Shown here: piece by piece, positions 20,710-31,967 of the stretch
How the letters are laid out: the number at the start of each line of letters is the position of its first letter
Position numbering within the stretch: position 1 is the stretch's first letter
Assembly: GCA_903920455.1 (NCBI GenBank)
Contig: CAIXLY010000003.1
Coordinates: 1-64,000, forward strand
Length of the DNA: 64,000 nt
Source: an uncultured bacterium
GTDB lineage: Bacteria; Bacteroidota; Bacteroidia; Chitinophagales; Chitinophagaceae
Direction: 5' to 3'
Position numbers and translations under genes: made by a program
The notes under the pieces: generated by a model
What the model was told of the DNA's origin: nothing
What the model saw: only the letters and a program-made list of their open reading frames with translations
The model's database searches: none

Positions 20710-22530
20710 TTAGTCTTCAGAAAACTTGCGCTGAAGTTGGATTAAATGGGCATAATGGCCGTGATTTTCAAGTAGTTCAGCGTGGTTGCCCGACTCAATA
20801 ACCTTACCCTGATCCAACACCAGGATGTTGGTCGCTTTTCTGATGGTGGACAGCCTGTGGGCAATCACGATGGAGGTTCTGTCGGCAGTCAAGACATCAA
20901 TAGCGTGTTGGATCAACTTTTCGGTCTGGGTATCTACAGACGAGGTGGCTTCGTCCAATATGAGAATTGCAGGATTATAAAGCAATGCCCTGATAAAGGA
21001 GAGCAATTGACGTTGGCCCATCGAAAGGGTGCTTCCCCGCTCCATGACATGATAATCGTACCCGCCAGGCAGCTGTTCAATAAAATCATGGATACCAATC
21101 GCTTTGGCAGCATGAATCACTTCTTGTTTGGATATAGCAGGATTGCGGAGCGTGACATTGTCAAGGATTGAACCAGAAAAAAGGAATACATCTTGCAAGA
21201 CAACCGCAATTTTTGATCTTAGATATTCAATGTTGAATGACTCTATCGGCTGGCCATCAATGAGAATTTGACCAGATTGGTGCTGATACAGCCGATTGAT
21301 CAAACTAATGATTGTCGACTTACCACTTCCTGTATGTCCGACAATGGCCATTGTCTCACCCTGATCAACAGAAAAAGAAACATTGTCCAATACAGGTGCC
21401 CCATCAACATATTGAAAACTCACATTCCTGAATTCAACCCTGCCCTTGATGGGAAAATCGACAGCTTCATGACTATCCTTCAGTACATCCTTGTTGTCTA
21501 GTACAGCCAACACCCGCTCCCCTGCCACCATGCCCATTTGGAGCACATTGAATTTATCTGCGATAACCCGCAATGGACGAAACAAAAGATTCAGCAATAG
21601 TGTGAAAGAAACAATATTACCCGTTACAGTTACTGCTTCATTCACGCCAAGATGAAAAGCATCCCTGGCTGCAAACCAGACCAAGATCCCCATAGAGAAT
21701 GCAAGTACGATTTCAACAACAGGGAAAAAAACTGAGTAGGCAAAAATAGCTTCGATATTAGCATCCTTGTGCCGGCGATTAATTGTTGTGAACTTAGCTT
21801 GCTCTCTGTCCTCTGCAGTAAACGCCTGTATGATTTGCATTCCTGAGATATGCTCCTGAACAAATGCATTGAGTGATGCAATCGCATTTCTCACACTGAT
21901 GAATGACCGATTCACACTTTCCTTAAAAAAATAGGTAGCGATAATTAATAACGGAAAGGGAATGATGCAGACCAAGGTCAATTGCCAATTGGTATAAAAC
22001 ATCGCAGATAAAATTGCGATGATCGAAAGCATGTCCGCAACAATCGGAATAAGTCCTTCAGAAAAAATATCGTTGATGGCCTCAATATCATTGATCGTTC
22101 TTGTGCTCAATGTACCAATAGGCGTTTTATCAAACTGACGAAGATTGAAAGAAAGAATTTTTTCATACACGGCCACGCGGATATCTTTCACCACCCTGTG
22201 ACCCAACCAAGATGTTGTGTAAGAAAAAAGAAAACGAAGACATACTTCAAGCAACAATACCCCAACTTGAACCAGCGTAACCATCAACAAAAATTCCATT
22301 AAAATTTTTGCGGGAGAACCAATATCCGCACTTATCCGCTTTAAGGTGAAGTTGATCAGCATTGGGCGTATGGGAGACATTATCGCGAGCACCAACGCCA
22401 ATATGATGGAGATATAAAATCTTTCTGAATAAGGCTTTGCATAAGAGAATATTCTTCTCAGCAGCTGGAAGTTAACAACCTTATTGAGCGCATTGATATT
22501 AGTTTTTTTCATTCTCCCCTGCTGTTGCAT
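20710..22530 (-). CDS. MsbA-like ABC exporter (fused permease-ATPase)
   Basis: This half-transporter of about 606 residues has an N-terminal six-helix type I exporter domain (about 40-330) and a C-terminal ATPase with Walker A VGHTGSGKSTIISL, signature LSMGQRQLLSF (Met replaces the usual Gly), Walker B AILILDEATSSVD and the H-loop IVIAHRLSTIR. Homodimers of this type flip lipids, lipid A precursors or drugs. The ATG at 22530 is coupled to the stop of the exported clan-CD-like gene (TGATG). An ATG at 22512 after AGGGGAGA is an alternative. The next gene on the strand is atpB, but atpB has its own promoter. Confidence 0.93.
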   Translation of the reverse strand: MQQQGRMKKTNINALNKVVNFQLLRRIFSYAKPYSERFYISIILALVLAIMSPIRPMLINFTLKRISADIGSPAKILMEFLLMVTLVQVGVLLLEVCLRFLFSYTTSWLGHRVVKDIRVAVYEKILSFNLRQFDKTPIGTLSTRTINDIEAINDIFSEGLIPIVADMLSIIAILSAMFYTNWQLTLVCIIPFPLLIIATYFFKESVNRSFISVRNAIASLNAFVQEHISGMQIIQAFTAEDREQAKFTTINRRHKDANIEAIFAYSVFFPVVEIVLAFSMGILVWFAARDAFHLGVNEAVTVTGNIVSFTLLLNLLFRPLRVIADKFNVLQMGMVAGERVLAVLDNKDVLKDSHEAVDFPIKGRVEFRNVSFQYVDGAPVLDNVSFSVDQGETMAIVGHTGSGKSTIISLINRLYQHQSGQILIDGQPIESFNIEYLRSKIAVVLQDVFLFSGSILDNVTLRNPAISKQEVIHAAKAIGIHDFIEQLPGGYDYHVMERGSTLSMGQRQLLSFIRALLYNPAILILDEATSSVDTQTEKLIQHAIDVLTADRTSIVIAHRLSTIRKATNILVLDQGKVIESGNHAELLENHGHYAHLIQLQRKFSED

Positions 22531-24719
22531 CAAAGCTGACTGCCATTAAATGCTTTAATGAATAATGCCCCAAGATTTTTATGCGGCGGTATATAATTAT
22601 CAAATCGCTCTTTGGCAATACCATTTCCAAACTGGCCTTCGAGTTGTTTCCAGATACTAATCCAATCAACCCCATTGCCATTGCGTAAGGATTCAACTAT
22701 CATTTTCACTACGGGCTCATTGACGATCTTGGTGCCTACTTCTTTAGACGAGACGATGTGTGCATCTGGACACATGTCAAGCACGGCACTAAGGTTTTGA
22801 AAACTACCGCAGGAGCCCAACACAACAATTCGCGCTGATGGCGGCAACTGCCCAAGGGTGTATTTGAGGTGATAACTATGCCCCCTGTGAATAACGATTG
22901 AAGGCTTCATTCCTTTTGTTTTCAGGTAATCACCAAGCAAGACCTGAGCCTTTGCATCAGGATCATCGCCTTTTGAATTGTCGAGTGGAAGGTTTGCAAA
23001 AATTAAAATGGGTTTACCAATAAGTGATCTGATTTCTACCCAATGTTCATTTTGTTCAATTTTCCATTCGCTTCTACCTCTGAAGGTTGACATGAAATTT
23101 GCAAAAGATTCCGCCCCATCCTTATCCCCATAAAAAAATACCTGCTGCACAATGCGGCCCCCTTGATCAGCAAGTTCATCATAAGGCAATCGATAAGCAG
23201 ATGGTATTTTGTATTTTGTAGTTAGTTCTTTTGCACTGTCTGATGCAGCCCTGAAGAGCAGGTGCAAAATGCCATAGATTGCGTCTCCCCTTCGGTTGTC
23301 GTTCATTCTCTGTACAATAAGATTATTCTCAATCTCTGCACTTACCAATTTTCTAATGGCGTCATTTTTAATACTGCTATAAGAATCTGCAACATCAACA
23401 GCATCTTCAAGATCAAAGTTTTTTTCTAGTCCCCTTACAAACGCTTTCATCAACATTTTGGCATTGTCGGTAGACATGCTAGCAAGGAATGCATCAAGTT
23501 TATTGTAGCCCGCAGCCATTCTGATGAACTTTTTAAATCGGTCAAACCGAACCCTCATAAGAATTGAATCGCCCGCCGAATTTGGCGTACGGGCCATCAT
23601 GCGGTTGTATACACCTACATAACTTGAGGTGTACAAAACATCTTCCCCTGTAACAATGATATAATAGAGTTCTTCTGCATTGAGCGGATTGAGTATCTTA
23701 AACCTCACTTCATCCTGCTCGTCATGCAAGGCATTGATCTCATTAATGAATAAGCTTTCAGCTTTTTTCTTGATGGTGAGCCCGATTTCAAGATGCAGGA
23801 TTGGAGTATCTCTTTTTCTCATATCGTCTGCATACTCCCCTTGTGTTCTAACCAACAATCGATAATATTTTAAGTCATTCGCGATTGCGAGCTTGATGGA
23901 GTCTGTAGAAATTCTTCCTTTCATGATCGAGTGAACAAAAGGAAAGATTAGCCGTCCTGAGGGATCCTCTGAAATTGATGCAATCAACGAAACCAGCGGA
24001 TTGTTGATTACTCGAATTTTTTTGCCCAACAGACTTCCCGTTGCGGCTGCATAATTATAAAACTGCTCAGGAAAACGATTTGCAGTTGCGATAATCAGAC
24101 TGTCGGCAAATGGTTCCTCCAGGTATGGATCGATCTTGGCAAGTACCAAGAGGGGTTGTTCGGCAGCAAATTGCTTGAACATCATGGTCCTAGATTCCTT
24201 AAGCCCTTTGTTTTCAAAAAACACAGAGTTCTCCCCTAGCAATAATTGGTTTACCACATAAGGAAACCGCATGACCAAAGGCAATATGCTATTGCCCTCC
24301 ATATCCGCATTCATATACTGATGATAGGCTGAGAATATAACCACCCCCTGGCCCGCCACTATCTTTCCTGCTTGCCAGCTGTCGATAAAGCCTTTCATCA
24401 TCAGGGTTAAGCCGGTCAGGTATTTTACCTTTATTCTGTGGTCGAGGTTGGGACTTGCTTCAATTTCAGCCTGTAAAACATCAAGCTGCCTTGTATAAAT
24501 ATCCGTGAATAAGAGGTCTAGGTCCTGATCTTTATTGAGCACGGCCAACTGCTGAGTTCCTCCTTCCAGGGAGATGACCTGTTTCTGCAAAGCATCAATA
24601 TCTTCGTGCAATTTTATTCGCCGTATGTCAATTTGCACCTTCCCGGTATCGCTCAGAGCGGCAGCCGAAGAAAAAAGGGGAAGCAGGGCAAAAGCAATTA
24701 TAAACCTCAGGATGTGCAT
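22530..24719 (-). CDS. Uncharacterised exported protein with a possible clan CD (caspase/gingipain-like) C-terminal domain
   Basis: I do not recognise a named family. From the ATG at 24719 the protein has 729 residues: a signal peptide (MHILRFIIAFALLPLFSSAA), a long mostly helical middle, and a C-terminal alpha/beta part from about residue 540. There IVIHRGHSYHLKYTL (His611, His614) is followed by the strand RIVVLGSCGSFQNL (Cys637). A hydrophobic strand ending in His-Gly-like residues and a second strand ending in Ser-Cys-Gly is the layout of clan CD peptidases (caspase, gingipain, CHAT). The His-Cys spacing is shorter than usual, so activity is uncertain. It is translationally coupled to the MsbA-like exporter downstream and divergent from the PhoB-like regulator. 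Confidence 0.7.
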   Translation of the reverse strand: MHILRFIIAFALLPLFSSAAALSDTGKVQIDIRRIKLHEDIDALQKQVISLEGGTQQLAVLNKDQDLDLLFTDIYTRQLDVLQAEIEASPNLDHRIKVKYLTGLTLMMKGFIDSWQAGKIVAGQGVVIFSAYHQYMNADMEGNSILPLVMRFPYVVNQLLLGENSVFFENKGLKESRTMMFKQFAAEQPLLVLAKIDPYLEEPFADSLIIATANRFPEQFYNYAAATGSLLGKKIRVINNPLVSLIASISEDPSGRLIFPFVHSIMKGRISTDSIKLAIANDLKYYRLLVRTQGEYADDMRKRDTPILHLEIGLTIKKKAESLFINEINALHDEQDEVRFKILNPLNAEELYYIIVTGEDVLYTSSYVGVYNRMMARTPNSAGDSILMRVRFDRFKKFIRMAAGYNKLDAFLASMSTDNAKMLMKAFVRGLEKNFDLEDAVDVADSYSSIKNDAIRKLVSAEIENNLIVQRMNDNRRGDAIYGILHLLFRAASDSAKELTTKYKIPSAYRLPYDELADQGGRIVQQVFFYGDKDGAESFANFMSTFRGRSEWKIEQNEHWVEIRSLIGKPILIFANLPLDNSKGDDPDAKAQVLLGDYLKTKGMKPSIVIHRGHSYHLKYTLGQLPPSARIVVLGSCGSFQNLSAVLDMCPDAHIVSSKEVGTKIVNEPVVKMIVESLRNGNGVDWISIWKQLEGQFGNGIAKERFDNYIPPHKNLGALFIKAFNGSQL

Positions 24720-24725
24720 CTTATG

Positions 24726-24733
24726 CAAAATTA
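24726..24733 (-). promoter_or_regulatory. -7 promoter element of the clan-CD-like gene
   Basis: The minus strand reads TAATTTTG, a full match to TAnnTTTG, ending six bases before the ATG at 24719. If used, the message would be almost leaderless or would start translation further in. A longer start at 24755 or 24737 would need another promoter. Confidence 0.45.
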
Positions 24734-24846
24734 GCATTAATATTCCAGCACCCATACCCTCTTATCCGCGACTGATCAGAAATTATGCCTTAATCCATTA
24801 ACAATTTGATAATCCAGAATCTTGGCATTATGAAATCAAGGGAGAC

Positions 24847-24854
24847 TAACTTTG
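24847..24854 (+). promoter_or_regulatory. Promoter of the PhoB-like regulator gene
   Basis: TAACTTTG at 24847-24854 matches the -7 consensus TAnnTTTG. A TTGG at about 24822 lies 21 bases further up, in the place of the -33 element. The predicted RNA start falls at or next to the ATG at 24859. Confidence 0.6.
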
Positions 24855-24858
24855 CACT

Positions 24859-25551
24859 ATGCAATCCAAGATGGCTCCAAGAGGTAACCGGGTTTTAATC
24901 GCCGACGATGAGCCAGATATACTGGAAATCCTAACATACAACCTGCAACTTCATGGCTATGATGTGATGACCGCAAAAGACGGGGATCAGGCAATTCAGA
25001 AAGCAAAGCAATTCAACCCTGATCTGATTATTCTTGATATCATGATGCCAAAGAAAAATGGTATTGAAGTGTGCAAGATTTTGAGAACGCAACCAGAATT
25101 CAAAGATACCCTCATTATTTTTTTAACGGCCTTGAGTGATGAGCTCTCCCATGTTAAGGGCTTAGAAGATGGAGCCGATGATTTTATCAGCAAGCCGGTT
25201 TCTCCAAAAATATTGGTCTCAAAAGTAAATTCCCTTTTCAGACGGATTAATAAACCAGAAAAATCTAAGGGCATAGAGATTGGCGACTTAAGAATTGAGC
25301 CAGAAGAATATGTAGTTTACTACAAAGGGGAACCCGTCAATCTTGCAAAAAAAGAATTTGAGCTTCTCAACTACCTGGCTTCCAAACCTGGCAGGGTCTT
25401 TCTTAGAAACGAGATTTTGAATACAATCTGGGGTAGTGAGGTGATTGTGGGCGACAGGACCATTGACGTGCACATTAGGAAAATCAGGCAAAAACTGGGC
25501 ATGGACTGCATTACCACAGTCAAGGGTGTTGGATACAAATTCGAAGCCTAA
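24859..25551 (+). CDS. PhoB/OmpR family response regulator
   Basis: The 230-residue regulator has a receiver domain (acidic pocket ADDEPD, phospho-acceptor Asp60 in LIILDIMMP, then the Thr and Lys of the switch region in FLTALSD and ISKPVSP) and an OmpR-type winged-helix DNA-binding domain (LAKKEFELLNYLASKPG, DRTIDVHIRKIRQKLG, TVKGVGYKFEA). It is cotranscribed with the kinase 38 bases downstream. Domain layout and motifs fit the PhoB branch in Bacteroidota. Met5 at 24871 is an alternative start. Confidence 0.93.
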   Translation: MQSKMAPRGNRVLIADDEPDILEILTYNLQLHGYDVMTAKDGDQAIQKAKQFNPDLIILDIMMPKKNGIEVCKILRTQPEFKDTLIIFLTALSDELSHVKGLEDGADDFISKPVSPKILVSKVNSLFRRINKPEKSKGIEIGDLRIEPEEYVVYYKGEPVNLAKKEFELLNYLASKPGRVFLRNEILNTIWGSEVIVGDRTIDVHIRKIRQKLGMDCITTVKGVGYKFEA

Positions 25552-25589
25552 CCCAATAGCAAATCTGCCGGCAATTCGTATATTGTGTT

Positions 25590-26636
25590 ATGCTCGACAC
25601 AAAAAACACCTCCCCCGGTAATATTGCCCTAATACTTTCTCTCATTGTGTCCTTATTTGCAGGGGTGCTAATTTCTCTTGGAGTGAAAGAAATTTTCTTC
25701 ACCCTGGTTTCCCTATTGGCAATTTTTATTCTCAGCTTTTTTCTTTCCAGATTCTTGATTGAAAAATTCATCCACCGAAAAATTAAGCTAATTTATAAGT
25801 TCATTCACCAAACCAAAGCATCAAAGCGTGAGGAATTTTTTAAGAGGTCGGTACTCCCACAGCAAAATCTTGAAGAGGTTGGAGAAGATGTCTTGCTCTG
25901 GGCCGATCAGCGAAAAGCAGAAATGGAGATGCTCGAAAAAAATGAAGCATTTAGAAAAGAGTTTCTTCAAAATCTAGCACATGAATTCAAAACGCCAGTG
26001 TTTGCCATCCAGGGATACCTGGAGACACTCATTGAAGGAGCTTCAGAAAGTCCAGAAATCAGAACAAAGTTTCTTGTAAACGCACATAAGAATACAGAAC
26101 GACTCATTAATTTGATTTCAGACCTAGACGAGATTACCAGCCTGGAAAGCGGAAAGCAAGAGATGCATTATACAAATTTTGTCATTCAAGACCTCATTCA
26201 CGAGGTGTTTGAATCACTTGCGATTAAGGCGGATAGAAAAACAATCAAGTGTCAGATCAAAAAAGGGTGTGAACAATCCATAGCAGTGCATGCAGACAAA
26301 GAAAAAATAAGACAGGTATTGATCAACTTGGTGGACAATGCGATAAAGTATGGCAATACCGAAGGCTTAATTGAAGCGAGCATTTACAGAACAGATGACA
26401 AAAAAGTACTTGTAGAAATAAGTGATGATGGTATTGGTATTGCTGAAGAACATCTCTCAAGAATATTCGAACGTTTCTACAGGACTGATTATGGCAGAAG
26501 CAGGAATATTGGAGGCACTGGATTGGGGCTCGCTATATGCAAACACATTATCGAGGCCCACGGGGAAATTATCCATGTAAGAAGTAAAGTTGGTGTTGGC
26601 ACTACATTCGGATTTAGCCTGGATGCGAGAGATTAA
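25590..26636 (+). CDS. PhoR-like sensor histidine kinase
   Basis: The 348-residue kinase has two N-terminal membrane helices (about residues 8-28 and 33-53) with almost no periplasmic loop, a short linker, a HisKA domain with His131 in NLAHEFKTP, and a HATPase domain with LVDNAIKYG, VEISDDGIGI, RIFERFYRTD and GGTGLGLAICKHI. The tiny external loop suggests it senses through a partner, as PhoR does with the Pst transporter, not by a large sensor domain. A perfect terminator hairpin follows. Confidence 0.93.
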   Translation: MLDTKNTSPGNIALILSLIVSLFAGVLISLGVKEIFFTLVSLLAIFILSFFLSRFLIEKFIHRKIKLIYKFIHQTKASKREEFFKRSVLPQQNLEEVGEDVLLWADQRKAEMEMLEKNEAFRKEFLQNLAHEFKTPVFAIQGYLETLIEGASESPEIRTKFLVNAHKNTERLINLISDLDEITSLESGKQEMHYTNFVIQDLIHEVFESLAIKADRKTIKCQIKKGCEQSIAVHADKEKIRQVLINLVDNAIKYGNTEGLIEASIYRTDDKKVLVEISDDGIGIAEEHLSRIFERFYRTDYGRSRNIGGTGLGLAICKHIIEAHGEIIHVRSKVGVGTTFGFSLDARD

Positions 26637-26663
26637 AGATGCGAGAAATTAATAATACATACA

Positions 26664-26702
26664 AACGCGCCGTTCCCAACTGGGAACGGCGCGTTACTTT
26701 TT
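26664..26702. terminator. Terminator behind the two-component pair
   Basis: A perfect 14-bp stem (26664-26677 with 26682-26695, arm AACGCGCCGTTCCC) is followed by ACTTTTT on the plus strand. It separates the convergent kinase gene and the lipoprotein gene and may stop both transcripts. Confidence 0.92.
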
Positions 26703-26721
26703 GCCCTTTTATTAGACCGTA

Positions 26722-28116
26722 TTAGTAGGCAGTATTTTGTGGATCCCAGTTTGTCCATCCTAGTGTCCAATCCGTGGTTCCCATTGCTCCTCTGAAGGTT
26801 AATGCGTTATTACCAGATGTTTTTATGAAATAAGAATTCATTCCAGTAAAGCTGGCACCAGTTAGTGCTGGGGATCCTTCCAAAGGCAAGAAGTTAGGAG
26901 CAGTTGAATAAAAAGGTGATGTCAATAGTGCTGCAGAAGCAGTTGCCAATGTTGTGCAACCTTGAGCTTCCGCCTTGTCCTGTATTTGCTGATTCGTAGC
27001 AATTGCCACATTTCCTGATTTGTAAGGAGAAGCAATGGCATGGACAATATTGTTTTTAAATTCTGAAGTACTGTCTACAAAGTAAGACCTGATCGAATTA
27101 TCAGACTCCAAAGACAAACCAGCCTTCTGCCATCCGATCATAACAGAATTGCGAAGAAGAAACTTAGTAGACCTTCTAAAGCGATTTCCGAAATTATGGT
27201 TTGCAGCAGTACCACTTGCATCATTAGGACCAACAAAAGTAAAGTTGCTAAGTTGCGGCTTTGTGAAAGGCTCTGTTGCGGTTCCTGACCCGTCGTTGTC
27301 ACACTCAATTCCATTTCCAGCATCTCCACCGTCTACAAAATCAGGCTTACGACAAGCAATAGCGTATTGAATCTTTCCAGAATATCCAAAATCAAAATCA
27401 AAATCATCATCAGCAGTTGAGAATGCAATCAGATTTTTACAATTTACTGTACCACCAAAAAATTCATATGCATCATCATTACCAAAAGATACCTGGACAT
27501 TTTCAATGATTGTTCCAGAACCTACACCACCAAGGGTTAACCCATTGATTTCGGATCCAGGTTCAGCTGCAATACCTGCAAATTCAATTCTTACAAAGCG
27601 AAGAATTCCACTTTCGTCATTTGGATCTGTACCACCATATTTTCTACCGACACCCCCCTCAACGGTTGGTGCTGGATCTTGCGGCCTATTTGTAGGCGCC
27701 TTACCTAATATGATAATACCACCCCAATCACCAGGTGTTCTGAGTCCGATTGACTTACCACTGGTAAATACTATTGGATTATCAGCACGGCCATCTGCAA
27801 TCAGTTTTGCACCACGTTCAACGATTAATGCACCTTTCTCAGTGATATCACTAAGGATTACACTACCAGGAGCAATGGTGAGGGTATTGCCATCTGTTAG
27901 ATAGACATATCCCTTAAGGGTGTACTTCCCTTTAGGCAAATAATAACTTTTGTTCATAATACCTTGGATAATACCACCATTGGAAGCTGGATCTTGAGGG
28001 TCTGTAGCACCTGTCCCACCATTGGTGTTATTGATAGTCTCTTCAAAATTAACTTTAAGACAAGAGCTGGCGGATATCATTAGAAGTGCCAATGCCCCAA
28101 AAAGGATCTTTTTCAT
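26722..28116 (-). CDS. Surface lipoprotein, predicted right-handed beta-helix, partner of the TonB-dependent receptor
   Basis: The 464-residue product begins with a lipoprotein signal (ISASSC, Cys19). The body carries repeated strand-turn patterns (NTLTIAPGSVI, GALIVERGAKLIADG, PIVFTSG, GDWGGIIILG, GSGTIIENVQVSFGNDDAYE) as in parallel beta-helix proteins. A very acidic loop (DDDFDFDFGY) might bind metal. It lies 20 bases after the TonB-dependent receptor gene and is almost surely cotranscribed with it. It is not SusD-like: I see no tetratricopeptide-like helices. Its ligand is unknown; the nearby Pho-like regulators make a phosphorus compound a reasonable guess. Confidence 0.75.
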   Translation of the reverse strand: MKKILFGALALLMISASSCLKVNFEETINNTNGGTGATDPQDPASNGGIIQGIMNKSYYLPKGKYTLKGYVYLTDGNTLTIAPGSVILSDITEKGALIVERGAKLIADGRADNPIVFTSGKSIGLRTPGDWGGIIILGKAPTNRPQDPAPTVEGGVGRKYGGTDPNDESGILRFVRIEFAGIAAEPGSEINGLTLGGVGSGTIIENVQVSFGNDDAYEFFGGTVNCKNLIAFSTADDDFDFDFGYSGKIQYAIACRKPDFVDGGDAGNGIECDNDGSGTATEPFTKPQLSNFTFVGPNDASGTAANHNFGNRFRRSTKFLLRNSVMIGWQKAGLSLESDNSIRSYFVDSTSEFKNNIVHAIASPYKSGNVAIATNQQIQDKAEAQGCTTLATASAALLTSPFYSTAPNFLPLEGSPALTGASFTGMNSYFIKTSGNNALTFRGAMGTTDWTLGWTNWDPQNTAY

Positions 28117-28136
28117 AATTGATTTTTTACCTTGTT

Positions 28137-30959
28137 TTATTTTTTCTTGTTGTTCTTACTAATATTAAAATCATAAGTGAATCCTATAGTTACCGTTGAA
28201 CCCGGAGTGTAGCTGTTGAACATTCTGTCAACACCTGCACTGTATGCTGTTGCCTCATCCTTGTTTTCATAAAAGAAAAAAGCGTTGTTCAAAATGTCAG
28301 CAACATTCAATTTGATTTCAGCCCTATCTCCGATAAATCTTTTAGAAAGCTGGAAATCCAACTGGTTGCGTGGTCGCTCATACACACTTGGGAACTCTTC
28401 GTTTCCTACAAGAGCAAGGCGTTCGCCAATTTTATTATAAAGTATGGATGCATTCAGCTTATCAGAAGTGAATTGAATACCTGCATTGATGAGGTAAGGT
28501 GATTGCCCCTGAAGCGGTCTGTTCGCACGAATTGCTTTGTTATTTCCACTTAAGTCGTTAAACACCACTTCAGATTTCAAGTACGTGTAGTTTCCAAAAA
28601 AACTGAAGTTTTTAAGCACAGGTGAAATGAAGTCGAATCCCTTTCGAACCTCTATTTCAAGACCAATCGTGTTGGCACTGATTGCATTTTGATAAAAATA
28701 ACGTCGGCTATCTGCATTGCTTCCTGGATCAAGTCTGAATTCAATTGGATCAGTAAAAGACTTATAAAATGCACCTATAGATATGGATTCGCCAGCTCTA
28801 GGATAAAGCTCATAACGAAGATCATAATTCAAAACGGATGTCCTTCTCAATGCCGTATCCCCCTTAACTCCATAATTCATTTCATAATCGTAAAAAGCAA
28901 ATTCAGCAATCTCTCTAAATTCTGGACGCGCCACTGTTCTGCTTGCTGCCATTCTTAAGGTTTGCTTATCCCCAACATTAATTGAAAGATTGACGGAAGG
29001 AAGCAAATCTAATTTTTCAGTGAGCCTTATACTCCGATTACCCGTTTGATCTTTAGAGGTCAGCAATTGCTGAAAATTCTCAGCCCTAAGTCCCCATATC
29101 ATTCTAAATGGACCAAATTTATTGTCTAACATTCCATATCCAGCATTGAGCACAGATATACCAAAGTATTTATCTTGATTGTTGGTGAATTCATCCAATA
29201 TATATCCAGCTTGTCCCATATTATCTGCATTAAACGCAGTAGAGACTGGCTTGTGCGAATTCTCGAATACGAAAGAATTCAGGTTTGTAACGTTGTATCT
29301 AAAGATTCGGCTACTGAAATCACGAACACGGACAAGCGATGAGCCTCCGAATTTTAACGTTTGCTTATCCTTACCCCCCCAATTCATTGGAACGATAAAT
29401 TGTCCTCCAGCACCAGCACTGTAATCCTTAAGATCACTAAAAAATCTCCTTGTATCATCTGGGTCAATTTCATAAGGATCAGTAGTATTGATACTTCTAG
29501 CGTACAAAGCACTTCTAAGGTCTGGCTGAGTTTTCCAATTGTATCCACCGTTACCGTTCCACTTGAATTTTATGCCCCTGCTACCCAACTGATGCTCTCC
29601 TTCAATTTGTGTACTATACAAACTTCTTTGATTGAGATAAGAGGATTGAAAAAGTATATCATTCTGACGATTGGTATTGTATCCTGTTCTTGTGTAGTAG
29701 TTGTCTTCGTAAAGTTGGTTGAACAGATTTTTGAAAGAGATTTTATGCTTTCCCTTTACCCATGAAAGATTTACAATACCTCCAAGATTTGCTTGGTATC
29801 TGTTTTGGTTGTCATTATACTCAAATACTGGAGATCCATCGGCTTCGTAAAAAGATCTCTTCACGTTATACACCAGCATCGAGTTTCGATAGTTTAACGA
29901 AACCAATGTTCCCAAATTTCCACCTTTCCTCAACTTATGACTTTGTGCATAGGTAAGGTTGAAAGTTTTAATTGGCTGTGCTATAGTATTTATCGGAGCA
30001 TAAACGTCGCCGCGAAATGATTTGGTATGCTCAATCTGCTTATTCAATCCAGCAGCATCTTTGCCCAACACACGATACAATTGAGCAGTTGCAGGAAAGC
30101 TATCTGGCATACTTCTGGTGCCGTCATCAAAACCTAACCAGTCGAACGAATTCCTTTTGTTGCTTGTGAAAGCGTTAAAAGTTGACTGGCTATTATACCC
30201 CACGCCAAACCCTACCGATAAAATATTTTTTGTTGGAATATCACGGGTATTCACTTGTACAAGTCCGCCTGAAAACTCTCCAGTAAATTCAGGGGTAGCC
30301 GTTTTGTTTATAACCAGGTTATCAATCAATGCTGCAGGAAACATATCAAAGGCAAAAGCTTTTTTATCTGGTTCACTGCTTGGGAGGAGTGCGCTATTTA
30401 ACATGGCTGAATTGTAGCGATCAGATAATCCACGTACAATAACAAAACGATTGTCTTGAATGGAAGCTCCACTTACCCGCTTCAACACTTCACCGGTATT
30501 TTTATCGGGAGTTCTTCTAATAAAATCAGCTGCCAATCCACTTGAAACTGCTGAATTGGTTCTTTGAAAAGTAAGCAGTGCCGTGGTGCTCTCTTGGCGG
30601 CGTGTTGAGCGGATTACAATTGCCTCGCTGTTTGTGACTTTTGGTGCAAGAACAATGGTAATAATTTCGTCAGACCCAACACCTGGCTCTATGCCTGAAA
30701 CCGCTTTTGTGTTGAATCCTAAACTTGATACTGTAAAGGTATATGTCTTTCCCTTCTCTAATAAAACAGTAAACTCACCCGCTACATTCGCAATTAATGT
30801 TTTGTTTATTTCTTCAACCAAGATACTTGCCCCAGGTATTGACTCATTGCTCGTATTGACAACCTTACCAGCAATATTTATTGATTGGGCTGAAGCCTGA
30901 GCAACTAAAAGGAACAGTGAAATAAAAAGTACTGTTAAACTAGATAGAATCGTCTTCAT
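28137..30959 (-). CDS. TonB-dependent outer-membrane receptor
   Basis: The 940-residue receptor has a signal peptide ending in AQAS, an N-terminal carboxypeptidase-regulatory-like beta domain (IAGKVVNTSNESIPGASILV), a plug domain (RRTPDKNTGEVLKRVSGAS, FVIVRGLSDRYNSAMLN) and a C-terminal beta barrel with the last strand TVTIGFTYDFNI. Such receptors import large or scarce ligands using TonB energy. The gene is first in a two-gene unit with the beta-helix lipoprotein. Upstream lies a 148-base region with TTAA motifs in an 11-bp register, compatible with control by the PhoB-like regulator a few kilobases away. Confidence 0.93.
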   Translation of the reverse strand: MKTILSSLTVLFISLFLLVAQASAQSINIAGKVVNTSNESIPGASILVEEINKTLIANVAGEFTVLLEKGKTYTFTVSSLGFNTKAVSGIEPGVGSDEIITIVLAPKVTNSEAIVIRSTRRQESTTALLTFQRTNSAVSSGLAADFIRRTPDKNTGEVLKRVSGASIQDNRFVIVRGLSDRYNSAMLNSALLPSSEPDKKAFAFDMFPAALIDNLVINKTATPEFTGEFSGGLVQVNTRDIPTKNILSVGFGVGYNSQSTFNAFTSNKRNSFDWLGFDDGTRSMPDSFPATAQLYRVLGKDAAGLNKQIEHTKSFRGDVYAPINTIAQPIKTFNLTYAQSHKLRKGGNLGTLVSLNYRNSMLVYNVKRSFYEADGSPVFEYNDNQNRYQANLGGIVNLSWVKGKHKISFKNLFNQLYEDNYYTRTGYNTNRQNDILFQSSYLNQRSLYSTQIEGEHQLGSRGIKFKWNGNGGYNWKTQPDLRSALYARSINTTDPYEIDPDDTRRFFSDLKDYSAGAGGQFIVPMNWGGKDKQTLKFGGSSLVRVRDFSSRIFRYNVTNLNSFVFENSHKPVSTAFNADNMGQAGYILDEFTNNQDKYFGISVLNAGYGMLDNKFGPFRMIWGLRAENFQQLLTSKDQTGNRSIRLTEKLDLLPSVNLSINVGDKQTLRMAASRTVARPEFREIAEFAFYDYEMNYGVKGDTALRRTSVLNYDLRYELYPRAGESISIGAFYKSFTDPIEFRLDPGSNADSRRYFYQNAISANTIGLEIEVRKGFDFISPVLKNFSFFGNYTYLKSEVVFNDLSGNNKAIRANRPLQGQSPYLINAGIQFTSDKLNASILYNKIGERLALVGNEEFPSVYERPRNQLDFQLSKRFIGDRAEIKLNVADILNNAFFFYENKDEATAYSAGVDRMFNSYTPGSTVTIGFTYDFNISKNNKKK

Positions 30960-30978
30960 CGTGCCATTTATTATTACA

Positions 30979-30986
30979 CAAAGGAC
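30979..30986 (-). promoter_or_regulatory. Possible -7 element of the TonB-dependent receptor gene
   Basis: The minus strand reads GTCCTTTG, which keeps TTTG but departs from TAnnTTTG at the first two bases, 19 bases upstream of the ATG. A weak core promoter next to an operator array would fit activator-dependent transcription. Confidence 0.35.
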
Positions 30987-30997
30987 GCATCCGTAGG

Positions 30998-31057
30998 TTA
31001 ACGCACTGTTTGGTCTATATTAACCAATTGTAAAGCTCATATTAAGCCAAAGTTAAC
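30998..31057. promoter_or_regulatory. Pho-box-like operator array, TTAA-type motifs in an 11-bp register
   Basis: TTAAC at 30998, TTAAC at 31020, TTAAG at 31042 and TTAAC at 31053 start exactly 22, 22 and 11 bases apart. Weaker copies sit in the register at 31009 (TTTGG) and 31031 (TAAAG). Direct repeats every 11 bp are how PhoB/PhoP-type regulators bind; the cyanobacterial (YTTAAYYW) and Bacillus (TTAACA) Pho boxes look alike. The array begins 12 bases upstream of the possible -7 element of the receptor gene and ends 23 bases upstream of the one before rmlA, so it could act on either gene. Confidence 0.5.
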
Positions 31058-31106
31058 AGTGGAAATCCTGTTAAAAATTGCATCTTTGTGACCATAAATA
31101 CACCAT

Positions 31107-31967
31107 ATGAAAGGCATCATCCTGGCCGGAGGCTCCGGAACTAGACTTTACCCAATCACCTACGCCATCAGTAAGCAGATTATGCCTGTCTATGACAAGC
31201 CCATGATTTATTATCCGATGTCTACCTTGATGCTTGCCGGCATCAAAGAAATCCTGATTATTTCTACCCCTCAAGATCTGCCTCAATTCCAAAAGCTTTT
31301 TGGCGATGGCAGCCATCTTGGACTTTCCCTCAGCTATGCTGAACAGCCACTCCCAAATGGCCTTGCACAAGCCTTTGTCATTGGTGAACAATTCATAGGA
31401 AACGATTCCTGTGCGCTGGTACTTGGCGACAATATTTTTTATGGTGCCGGGCTTGGAAAAATGCTAGAAATGAATGCCAATCCCGATGGTGGCATTGTCT
31501 ATGCCTATGAGGTAAGCGACCCTGAAAGATATGGTGTTGTTGAATTTGATAAAAACATGAAAGCCATTTCAATAGAAGAGAAGCCGGCTTCTCCGAAAAG
31601 CAAGTTCGCTGTTCCGGGTTTGTATTTTTATGATAATGACGTAATTGAAATTGCCAAAAACATCAAGCCATCTCCCCGCGGTGAATACGAAATAACAGAT
31701 GTCAACCTCGAATATTTGAGAAGAGGAAAATTGAGTGTATCAATACTGGACAGAGGAACGGCATGGCTAGATACCGGCACATTTGATTCGCTTATGCAGG
31801 CTTCGCAGTTTATACAAGTGATTGAACAAAGACAAGGAATCAAGATTGCCTGTATTGAAGAGATTGCTTGGAGACAAGGGTTTATCAGCACAGCGCAATT
31901 GGTCAAATTGGCTGAACCCTTGCTGAAGAGTGGGTATGGTACCTATATTATGGGATTAATCAATTAG
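31107..31967 (+). CDS. rmlA: Glucose-1-phosphate thymidylyltransferase
   Basis: RmlA (RfbA) joins glucose 1-phosphate to dTTP, the first step to dTDP-sugars such as dTDP-L-rhamnose used in surface polysaccharides. The 286-residue length is standard. Blocks seen: [60 protein letters not shown] and [14 protein letters not shown]. It is followed 20 bases later by galE. The other rml genes (rmlB, C, D) are not in this window. Confidence 0.96.

Follow-up and report, generated by a model that had tools for sequence, protein, structure and literature searches.

Phosphate-responsive surface clusters have been described most closely in F. johnsoniae, whose PhoBR operon, or PUSIV (Fjoh_0541-0549), places PhoR, PhoB, a TonB-dependent receptor (TBDT) and a lipoprotein side by side (PMC8115612). 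Upon Pi depletion, Table 1 of that account gives fold changes, apparently log2, of 8.02 for Fjoh_0545 and 9.91 for Fjoh_0546, and a value of 3.06 for PhoB; the cluster members OprP (-1.3) and PhoR (0.76) are given as not induced (PMC8115612). The receptor-lipoprotein-phoBR cluster and its Pi induction are thus already known from F. johnsoniae, and no operator sequence was found in the account of PUSIV (PMC8115612). Its authors relate the F. johnsoniae lipoprotein to Caulobacter ElpS (PMC8115612), a surface lipoprotein described as made under phosphate starvation, while the Caulobacter TonB receptor cc0171 is described as expressed in both rich and poor media (PMC2996285). The general form of Pho boxes is established as 11-nt direct repeats, with the units CTGTCAT in E. 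coli and GTTCACC in S. coelicolor (PMC4415409). A paper on B. fragilis PhoB mentions a Pho box (PMC3547664) and predicted Pho boxes have been reported near plcP (PMC4796936); our literature search, which covered journals open without subscription, found no Bacteroidota Pho-box sequence, and a prior description is possible.

The window analysed here, the whole 64-kb stretch of DNA, contains a cluster of the same kind:

24859..25551, plus strand: response regulator of the PhoB type, with TIGR02154 PhoB as its best NCBIfam match
25590..26636, plus strand: PhoR-type kinase with HisKA, HATPase_c and a hydrophobic N-terminus
26664..26695, no strand assigned: terminator-like hairpin (14-bp stem) where phoR and the lipoprotein gene converge
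26722..28116, minus strand: lipoprotein of 464 aa, predicted right-handed parallel beta-helix, mean pLDDT 90
28137..30959, minus strand: TonB-dependent receptor of 940 aa with CarboxypepD_reg, Plug and OMP_b-brl_3
31107..31967, plus strand: rmlA, read divergently from the receptor gene and probably not regulated by the repeat array described below

The likeness to PUSIV was drawn from domains and arrangement. All three TBDT domains given for F. johnsoniae (pf07715, pf13715 and pf14905) are matched by the window receptor, and the F. johnsoniae lipoprotein (FII) is assigned to the pectin-lyase fold superfamily IPR011050 (PMC8115612); the window lipoprotein is a predicted beta-helix. PUSIV includes OprP, whereas the window has rmlA as the neighbour, with the porin and pit genes on another contig. 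The C. crescentus ElpS/CC0171 pair likewise consists of a surface lipoprotein and a TonB receptor whose homologues co-occur; in Caulobacter, ElpS release is described as dependent on a T2SS, and the homology rests on Lidbury's FI/FII/FIII statement. In its arrangement the window pair is ElpS/FII-like, a predicted beta-helix lipoprotein beside a TonB receptor.

The gap between the receptor and rmlA is 147 bases long, one fewer than in the original prediction, which had placed TTAA motifs in it at 30998, 31020, 31042 and 31053 with spacings of 22, 22 and 11; these positions were confirmed. The 11-bp repeat array proposed for this gap is real, directional and conserved in relatives, and consists of six in-register units read on the minus (receptor) strand, with the weight-matrix consensus [G/C][T/G]TAA[C/T]ATTnn. 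The Bacteroidota -7 consensus is TAnnTTTG, and the array lies just upstream of such an element:

30992..31057, minus strand: six in-register 11-bp units, the fifth weak; proposed PhoB operator of the receptor gene
31047-31057, minus strand: unit 1, GTTAACTTTGG
31036-31046, minus strand: unit 2, CTTAATATGAG
31025-31035, minus strand: unit 3, CTTTACAATTG
31014-31024, minus strand: unit 4, GTTAATATAGA
31003-31013, minus strand: unit 5, weak, CCAAACAGTGC
30992-31002, minus strand: unit 6, GTTAACCTACG
30979..30982, minus strand: TTTG of the receptor -7 element (TGCGTCCTTTGTG), 20 bp past the start of the last unit

The bare TTAA/11-bp pattern was not in excess, either in the window (6 matches against 8.85 expected) or in the 2.31-Mb genome, where the forward pattern matched 23 times and its reversed control 35 times. 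Because this pattern does not rise above chance, the evidence first offered for the array was insufficient alone, and the significance of the array comes from its conservation and from the refined unit. Scored with that unit, the window contained four three-unit matches above 16 bits, all of them inside the receptor array, and six two-unit matches above 12.5 bits, three inside the array and three elsewhere (19979, 25617 and 26793). Among the bare-pattern matches of the genome, seven other sites were fetched (L150-L156, on C7, C16, C35, C95 at ~8.3 kb, C98, C103 and C3 at ~148.6 kb); they were taken as chance since none had a three-unit score above 10.

Conservation was measured upstream of receptor orthologues, which were sought in 119 genomes at genus, family and order level and found in 98 of these at E ≤ 1e-30. 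Across 48 upstream regions, a TAA followed another TAA at 11 bp 132 times, compared to 8.7 in dinucleotide shuffles (z 46.6); further peaks occurred at 22 bp (z 30.1) and 33 bp (z 27.8), and the other distances from 4 to 40 had z below 5. A weight matrix was learnt from these 48 regions, and within these same learning regions the best five-unit array outscored every one of the 455 null pieces in 47 of 48 cases. With array presence defined as at least three units and a score of 12 or more, arrays were present in 45 of the 48 learning regions and in 67 of the 76 scored regions of a second set, compared to 18 of 2165 other pieces of the second-set loci, some of which may be true sites elsewhere. 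The second set overlaps the first, with 14 of its 77 regions repeating one of the 48; with duplicates removed, an array is found in 99 of the 111 distinct upstream regions and in 54 of the 63 held-out regions outside the learning of the matrix. An estimate of 2e-13 uses an assumed background of 0.6% and carries no weight in the argument. The lack of enrichment of the bare pattern would be consistent with an array of chance AT-rich repeats, but the TAA-TAA spacing, the array presence and the held-out counts refute this explanation, and with the array conserved and phased across roughly a hundred genomes its probability is negligible.

The array was missing from 12 of the 111 distinct regions, five of which belong to Mucilaginibacter or Pedobacter. 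At the Mucilaginibacter loci L134, L136, L138 and L147, receptor orthologues are found with no three-unit array upstream; these may have been rewired, or their starts may be wrongly placed.

The placement of the array relative to the promoter is also conserved. Receptor arrays have 3 to 7 units, and in 112 arrays (13 of them from the same organism twice) the last unit starts 20 bp before the TTTG in 60 cases and 31 bp before it in 27, two preferred distances that are one helical repeat apart. The array thus has the two or more 11-bp direct repeats of a Pho box and, in 87 of 112 cases, a fixed place of 20 or 31 bp from the core promoter. The Bacillus Pho-box unit is TTAACA. Like the array, the Pho boxes of E. 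coli, S. coelicolor and Bacillus are tandem 11-bp direct repeats, theirs being bound head to tail by PhoB/PhoP; the array differs from them in its unit, [GC][TG]TAA[CT]ATTnn, in its 3-7 units, and in its distances from the TTTG of 20 or 31 bp at the receptor and 41-43 bp at phoB.

Since the array lies between two divergent starts, it could in principle be the operator of rmlA, a surface sugar gene, or of both genes. The rmlA gene has a separate TTTG (31085-31088) and is the receptor's neighbour in the nearest relatives. The array is, however, directional and phased to the receptor TTTG, and it persists at loci that have, in place of rmlA, a porin O/P reading toward the receptor or PhoU_div upstream; we assign it to the receptor gene for these last two reasons. 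With rmlA rejected as the array's target by direction, phasing and synteny, we regard a role of the array as an rmlA or shared operator as very unlikely. The frequent order in Chitinophagaceae is PhoU_div (reverse), porin O/P, receptor and lipoprotein (forward), then PhoR and PhoB (reverse), while in the closest relatives of the window rmlA adjoins the receptor and the porin and PhoU_div are not at this place. Among 80 loci of relatives, 76 have a lipoprotein homologue; three of the remaining four (L069, L075 and L080) are cut off by the contig end within the receptor or shortly after it. PhoB, PhoR or both, at more than 50% identity, lie within 8 kb in 20 of the 80 loci (both in 18), many of the loci being on short contigs.

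The original prediction held that copies of the array should be found at other phosphate genes of the same genome. R1, a model of three units derived solely from 64 segments of receptor arrays, gave two own-genome matches at E ≤ 10 among the 150 of 615 candidates that were scored, both with modest scores: the receptor array itself (E 0.029) and a site at C95:31406-31434 (E 0.06). The C95 site is on the correct strand, ~190 bp before an operon whose genes all read in one direction and encode Porin_O_P (109.6 bits), PhoU_div (73.5 bits) and PHO4/PitA (324.9 bits), and a copy of the array at phosphate genes was thereby found. R1 scans with the stricter filters used below for the 60 relatives and the 197 class genomes gave no match in the own genome. 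The porin-PhoU_div-PitA promoter also contains a proximal two-unit box, CTTAACAATTT GGTAATATGGT, with the second unit starting 43 bp before the TTTG. Two boxes belong to the porin-PhoU_div-PitA operon at locus L149 (5261-5300 and 5404-5436): the distal one has multiple units, and the proximal one has two, spaced as at phoB.

Sites at phosphate genes were also found in relatives. The 80 loci (1.25 Mb, exclusive of F. johnsoniae and B. fragilis, the species with expression data) contained 114 sites that scored above 17 bits. The receptor accounts for 61 of these, the lipoprotein for 15, porin O/P for nine and PhoU_div for one; a further 17 are at genes outside the query set, and 11 are either distant from any gene or at an edge. 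A Pfam check of 17 site genes (12 unlabelled, three far and two labelled) identified nine as phosphate-related: two porin O/P, one of them below the cut-off, five calcineurin-like phosphoesterases, a polyphosphate kinase and a PhoU_div. The other eight were a sensor kinase, a TPR protein, a peptidase M57, a protein with no family, a sigma factor, a TonB-type receptor and two HHH proteins ~2 kb off. When R1 was run on 60 relatives at E ≤ 0.02, with stricter filters and at most 118 candidates scored per genome, 28 matches were obtained in 23 genomes; 16 lay at the receptor, two at porin O/P, one before a PhoB-like gene, two beside lipoprotein homologues, and seven elsewhere with no recognised target.

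At the class level, 197 genomes searched with R1 at E ≤ 0.003 yielded 12 matches in 11 genomes, with 36 candidates scored in each genome listed. Seven of these lie at PhoU_div/PitA, porin O/P (two), PI-PLC, PstS-like, PhoB-like and lipoprotein genes. The PhoU_div match is followed by PitA, one porin O/P is downstream beside PhoBR and the other is divergent, and the PhoB-like gene encodes a regulator 53% identical to the window PhoB. The remaining matches are at two receptor-like genes, a PLD-like protein and two places with no recognised target (L198 and L199). Genes at ten of the 12 class sites were put to Pfam; the L204 gene was named by eye and L199 was outside the Pfam check. Both within the own genome and in relatives, then, the array occurs at other phosphate genes.

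Two side observations concern individual arrays in relatives. In a close relative (L070:5948-8174), a polyphosphate kinase gene with an array of its own lies between the lipoprotein and PhoR; this gene is absent from the equivalent place in the window. In a single genome, G084, one array stretch appears at the ends of two contigs (L187:43-66 and L188:76-99), probably as a repeat or an assembly break.

The regulator and kinase genes had been predicted to encode a PhoB/OmpR-type regulator and a kinase with almost no sensor loop, and domain analysis agrees on both counts. The regulator contains Response_reg and Trans_reg_C; its score against TIGR02154 (227.8-228.3 bits) is under the curated cut-off of 296.2, and since this is its best NCBIfam match yet below the cut-off, we call it PhoB-like and not a certified equivalog. 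The kinase contains HisKA and HATPase_c and is hydrophobic from about residue 10 to 61 with K33 E34 as the sole break, from which its N-terminus is probably two membrane helices with almost no loop between them. Pfam detected no sensor domain in the window kinase, and in place of the PAS sensor of a PhoR, the window kinase and all ten relatives scanned show kinase domains only (E 0.001). Upstream of phoB, a short version of the array was found:

24797..24818, plus strand: two-unit box ATTAACAATTT GATAATCCAGA before phoB, with TTTG 43 bp past the start of unit 2
24851..24854, plus strand: TTTG of the phoB -7 element (TAACTTTG)

The window phoB box is weak (8.6 bits, against a control 95th percentile of 8.2). 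A two-unit box was present in 15 of 17 phoB promoters, comprising the window and 16 of the 18 loci with a PhoB, chosen for near-full length, with the TTTG at 41-43 bp in all 15; this count is descriptive because the regular expression was chosen after looking at the box scores. A different OmpR-type regulator of the genome might bind the array in place of the neighbouring PhoB: there are three further PhoB-profile matches, two of them full length (C35 and C16), and the window PhoB is itself below the curated cut-off. The window regulator nevertheless scores best (227.8 bits against 178.9, 138.9 and 94.8), phoB promoters carry a box of array-type units, and the targets are phosphate genes, all of which make another binder unlikely.

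Taken together, the 11-letter repeat before the receptor would be an on-switch for the phosphate-starvation response that is shared across a whole bacterial group; with a probability of roughly 85%, we read it as a tandem Pho box whose 11-bp units are the putative binding sites of phosphorylated PhoB, which would switch on the receptor promoter at low phosphate. The original prediction of a Pho-box-like array acting under phosphate limitation gains support from the second site at porin O/P-PhoU_div-PitA, from the sites at phosphate genes of relatives, and from the Pi induction of the F. johnsoniae TBDT and lipoprotein. Weighing against it are the sub-cut-off PhoB score, the modest own-genome matches and their loss with stricter filters, the 12 regions with no array, the weakness of the window phoB box, the sites with no recognised target, the lack of induction of OprP and PhoR in F. 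johnsoniae, and the expression of Caulobacter cc0171 whatever the medium. PhoB would be the binder of the array and low phosphate its signal. Phosphorylated PhoB (24859-25551) would bind the units head to tail, with the last unit sitting about where a -33 element would be, and, under phosphate scarcity, would bring RNA polymerase to the receptor promoter. One output would be the outer-membrane pair of TonB receptor and surface beta-helix lipoprotein; the other, from the second site of the genome, would be the porin O/P-PhoU_div-PitA operon. The two-unit box at phoB may provide autoregulation.

The role of the receptor-lipoprotein pair was considered separately. The receptor scores 199 bits against TIGR01782, which does not reach the cut-off of 310. 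SusCD (PUL) membership was rejected, with TIGR04056 at 31 bits against a cut-off of 368 and the lipoprotein in no family. The lipoprotein matched no Pfam or NCBIfam family, its sequence had no relative in the PDB at E ≤ 1, and its profile returned an unrelated PDB match alone (E 0.99). Foldseek gave no match to the model at E ≤ 0.001, and the closest solved folds included alginate epimerases, NosD, pectate lyase and phage tailspikes (Z ~19-23). Because the fold search yields just a common beta-helix, no enzymatic function is claimed. Residues 214-273 of the lipoprotein contain acidic residues that are invariant in 33 sequences (D214 D215 E218, D236 D237 D240, D262, E271 and D273), and their position on the predicted beta-helix is suggestive of a metal site.

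The pectin-lyase-type beta-helix, near to alginate epimerases, pectate lyase and phage tailspikes, would also suit a pair that serves a purpose other than phosphorus, such as polysaccharide capture, and is merely switched on at low phosphate. Such a purpose is a real but lesser possibility given how often porin O/P, PitA/PhoU_div, phosphoesterase and PPK genes accompany the pair, and given that overproduction of Caulobacter ElpS is described as raising extracellular phosphatase activity (PMC2996285). The likeliest reading of the pair's role is that it captures phosphorus-bearing material at the surface. It may thereby capture or take up a phosphorus source, and import of a phosphorus-containing ligand, as originally suggested, is plausible.

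How phosphate would be gauged in this organism was approached through its transport genes. In the own genome (table completeness of 100, in 106 contigs), no match was found to PstA (TIGR00974; 14 of 14 controls positive), to PhoU (PF01895; 13 of 14 controls positive), or to the Na/Pi cotransporter (NptA-type) profile (5 of 14 controls positive). By these profiles, PstA standing alone for PstSCAB, the genome has neither the classical Pst system nor the classical PhoU, and profile misses and contig gaps are possible explanations of the three absences. The single PitA of the genome is the one behind the array-bearing porin operon. Plant-associated Bacteroidetes have earlier been described as lacking Pst (PMC8115612), and 94 of the 118 relatives searched gave no PstA match. 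PstA was present in 9 of 20 listed receptor-less genomes, from which list one such genome is missing, compared to 15 of 98 genomes with the receptor (G001-G117; Fisher p 0.005, a test that ignores relatedness).

In S. aureus, PitR, a PhoU-like protein tied to PitA, is described as repressing PhoPR (PMC13170248). The likeness to the present genome lies in a PhoU-like protein tied to PitA, with PhoU_div (DUF47) assumed to be the equivalent of PitR; S. aureus also has PhoU/Pst and NptA (PMC13170248), whereas here the PstA, PhoU and Na/Pi cotransporter profiles are without a match. By elimination, PhoU_div/PitA is the sole accessory regulator and phosphate gauge identified here, and would be the phosphate gauge of this circuit. 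We tentatively propose, at somewhat less than even odds, a Pho circuit that operates without Pst, PhoU and NptA, in which a loop-less PhoR would be signalled by PitA-PhoU_div, PhoB would drive both that operon, as feedback on its own gauge, and the receptor-lipoprotein pair, and the response would be graded by how many phased units a promoter has, with two at phoB and between three and seven at the receptor.

The operator grammar, the two-unit phoB box and a genome with PitA-PhoU_div as the sole phosphate gauge identified are, as far as our search shows, new. Phosphate scavenging by Bacteroidota is important in lakes and soils, and an operator grammar that can be scanned for would allow the Pho regulons of Bacteroidota to be predicted from genomes and MAGs. 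For the question of how PhoR gauges phosphate without Pst and PhoU, this genome is also a natural small case, and it bears on whether import itself is what is sensed.

On the other side of phoB, the minus strand of the window encodes a 741-aa protein (22530-24755) that has no Pfam or NCBIfam family. A homologue of this protein lies beside phoB in 14 of the 80 related loci, making it a conserved neighbour.
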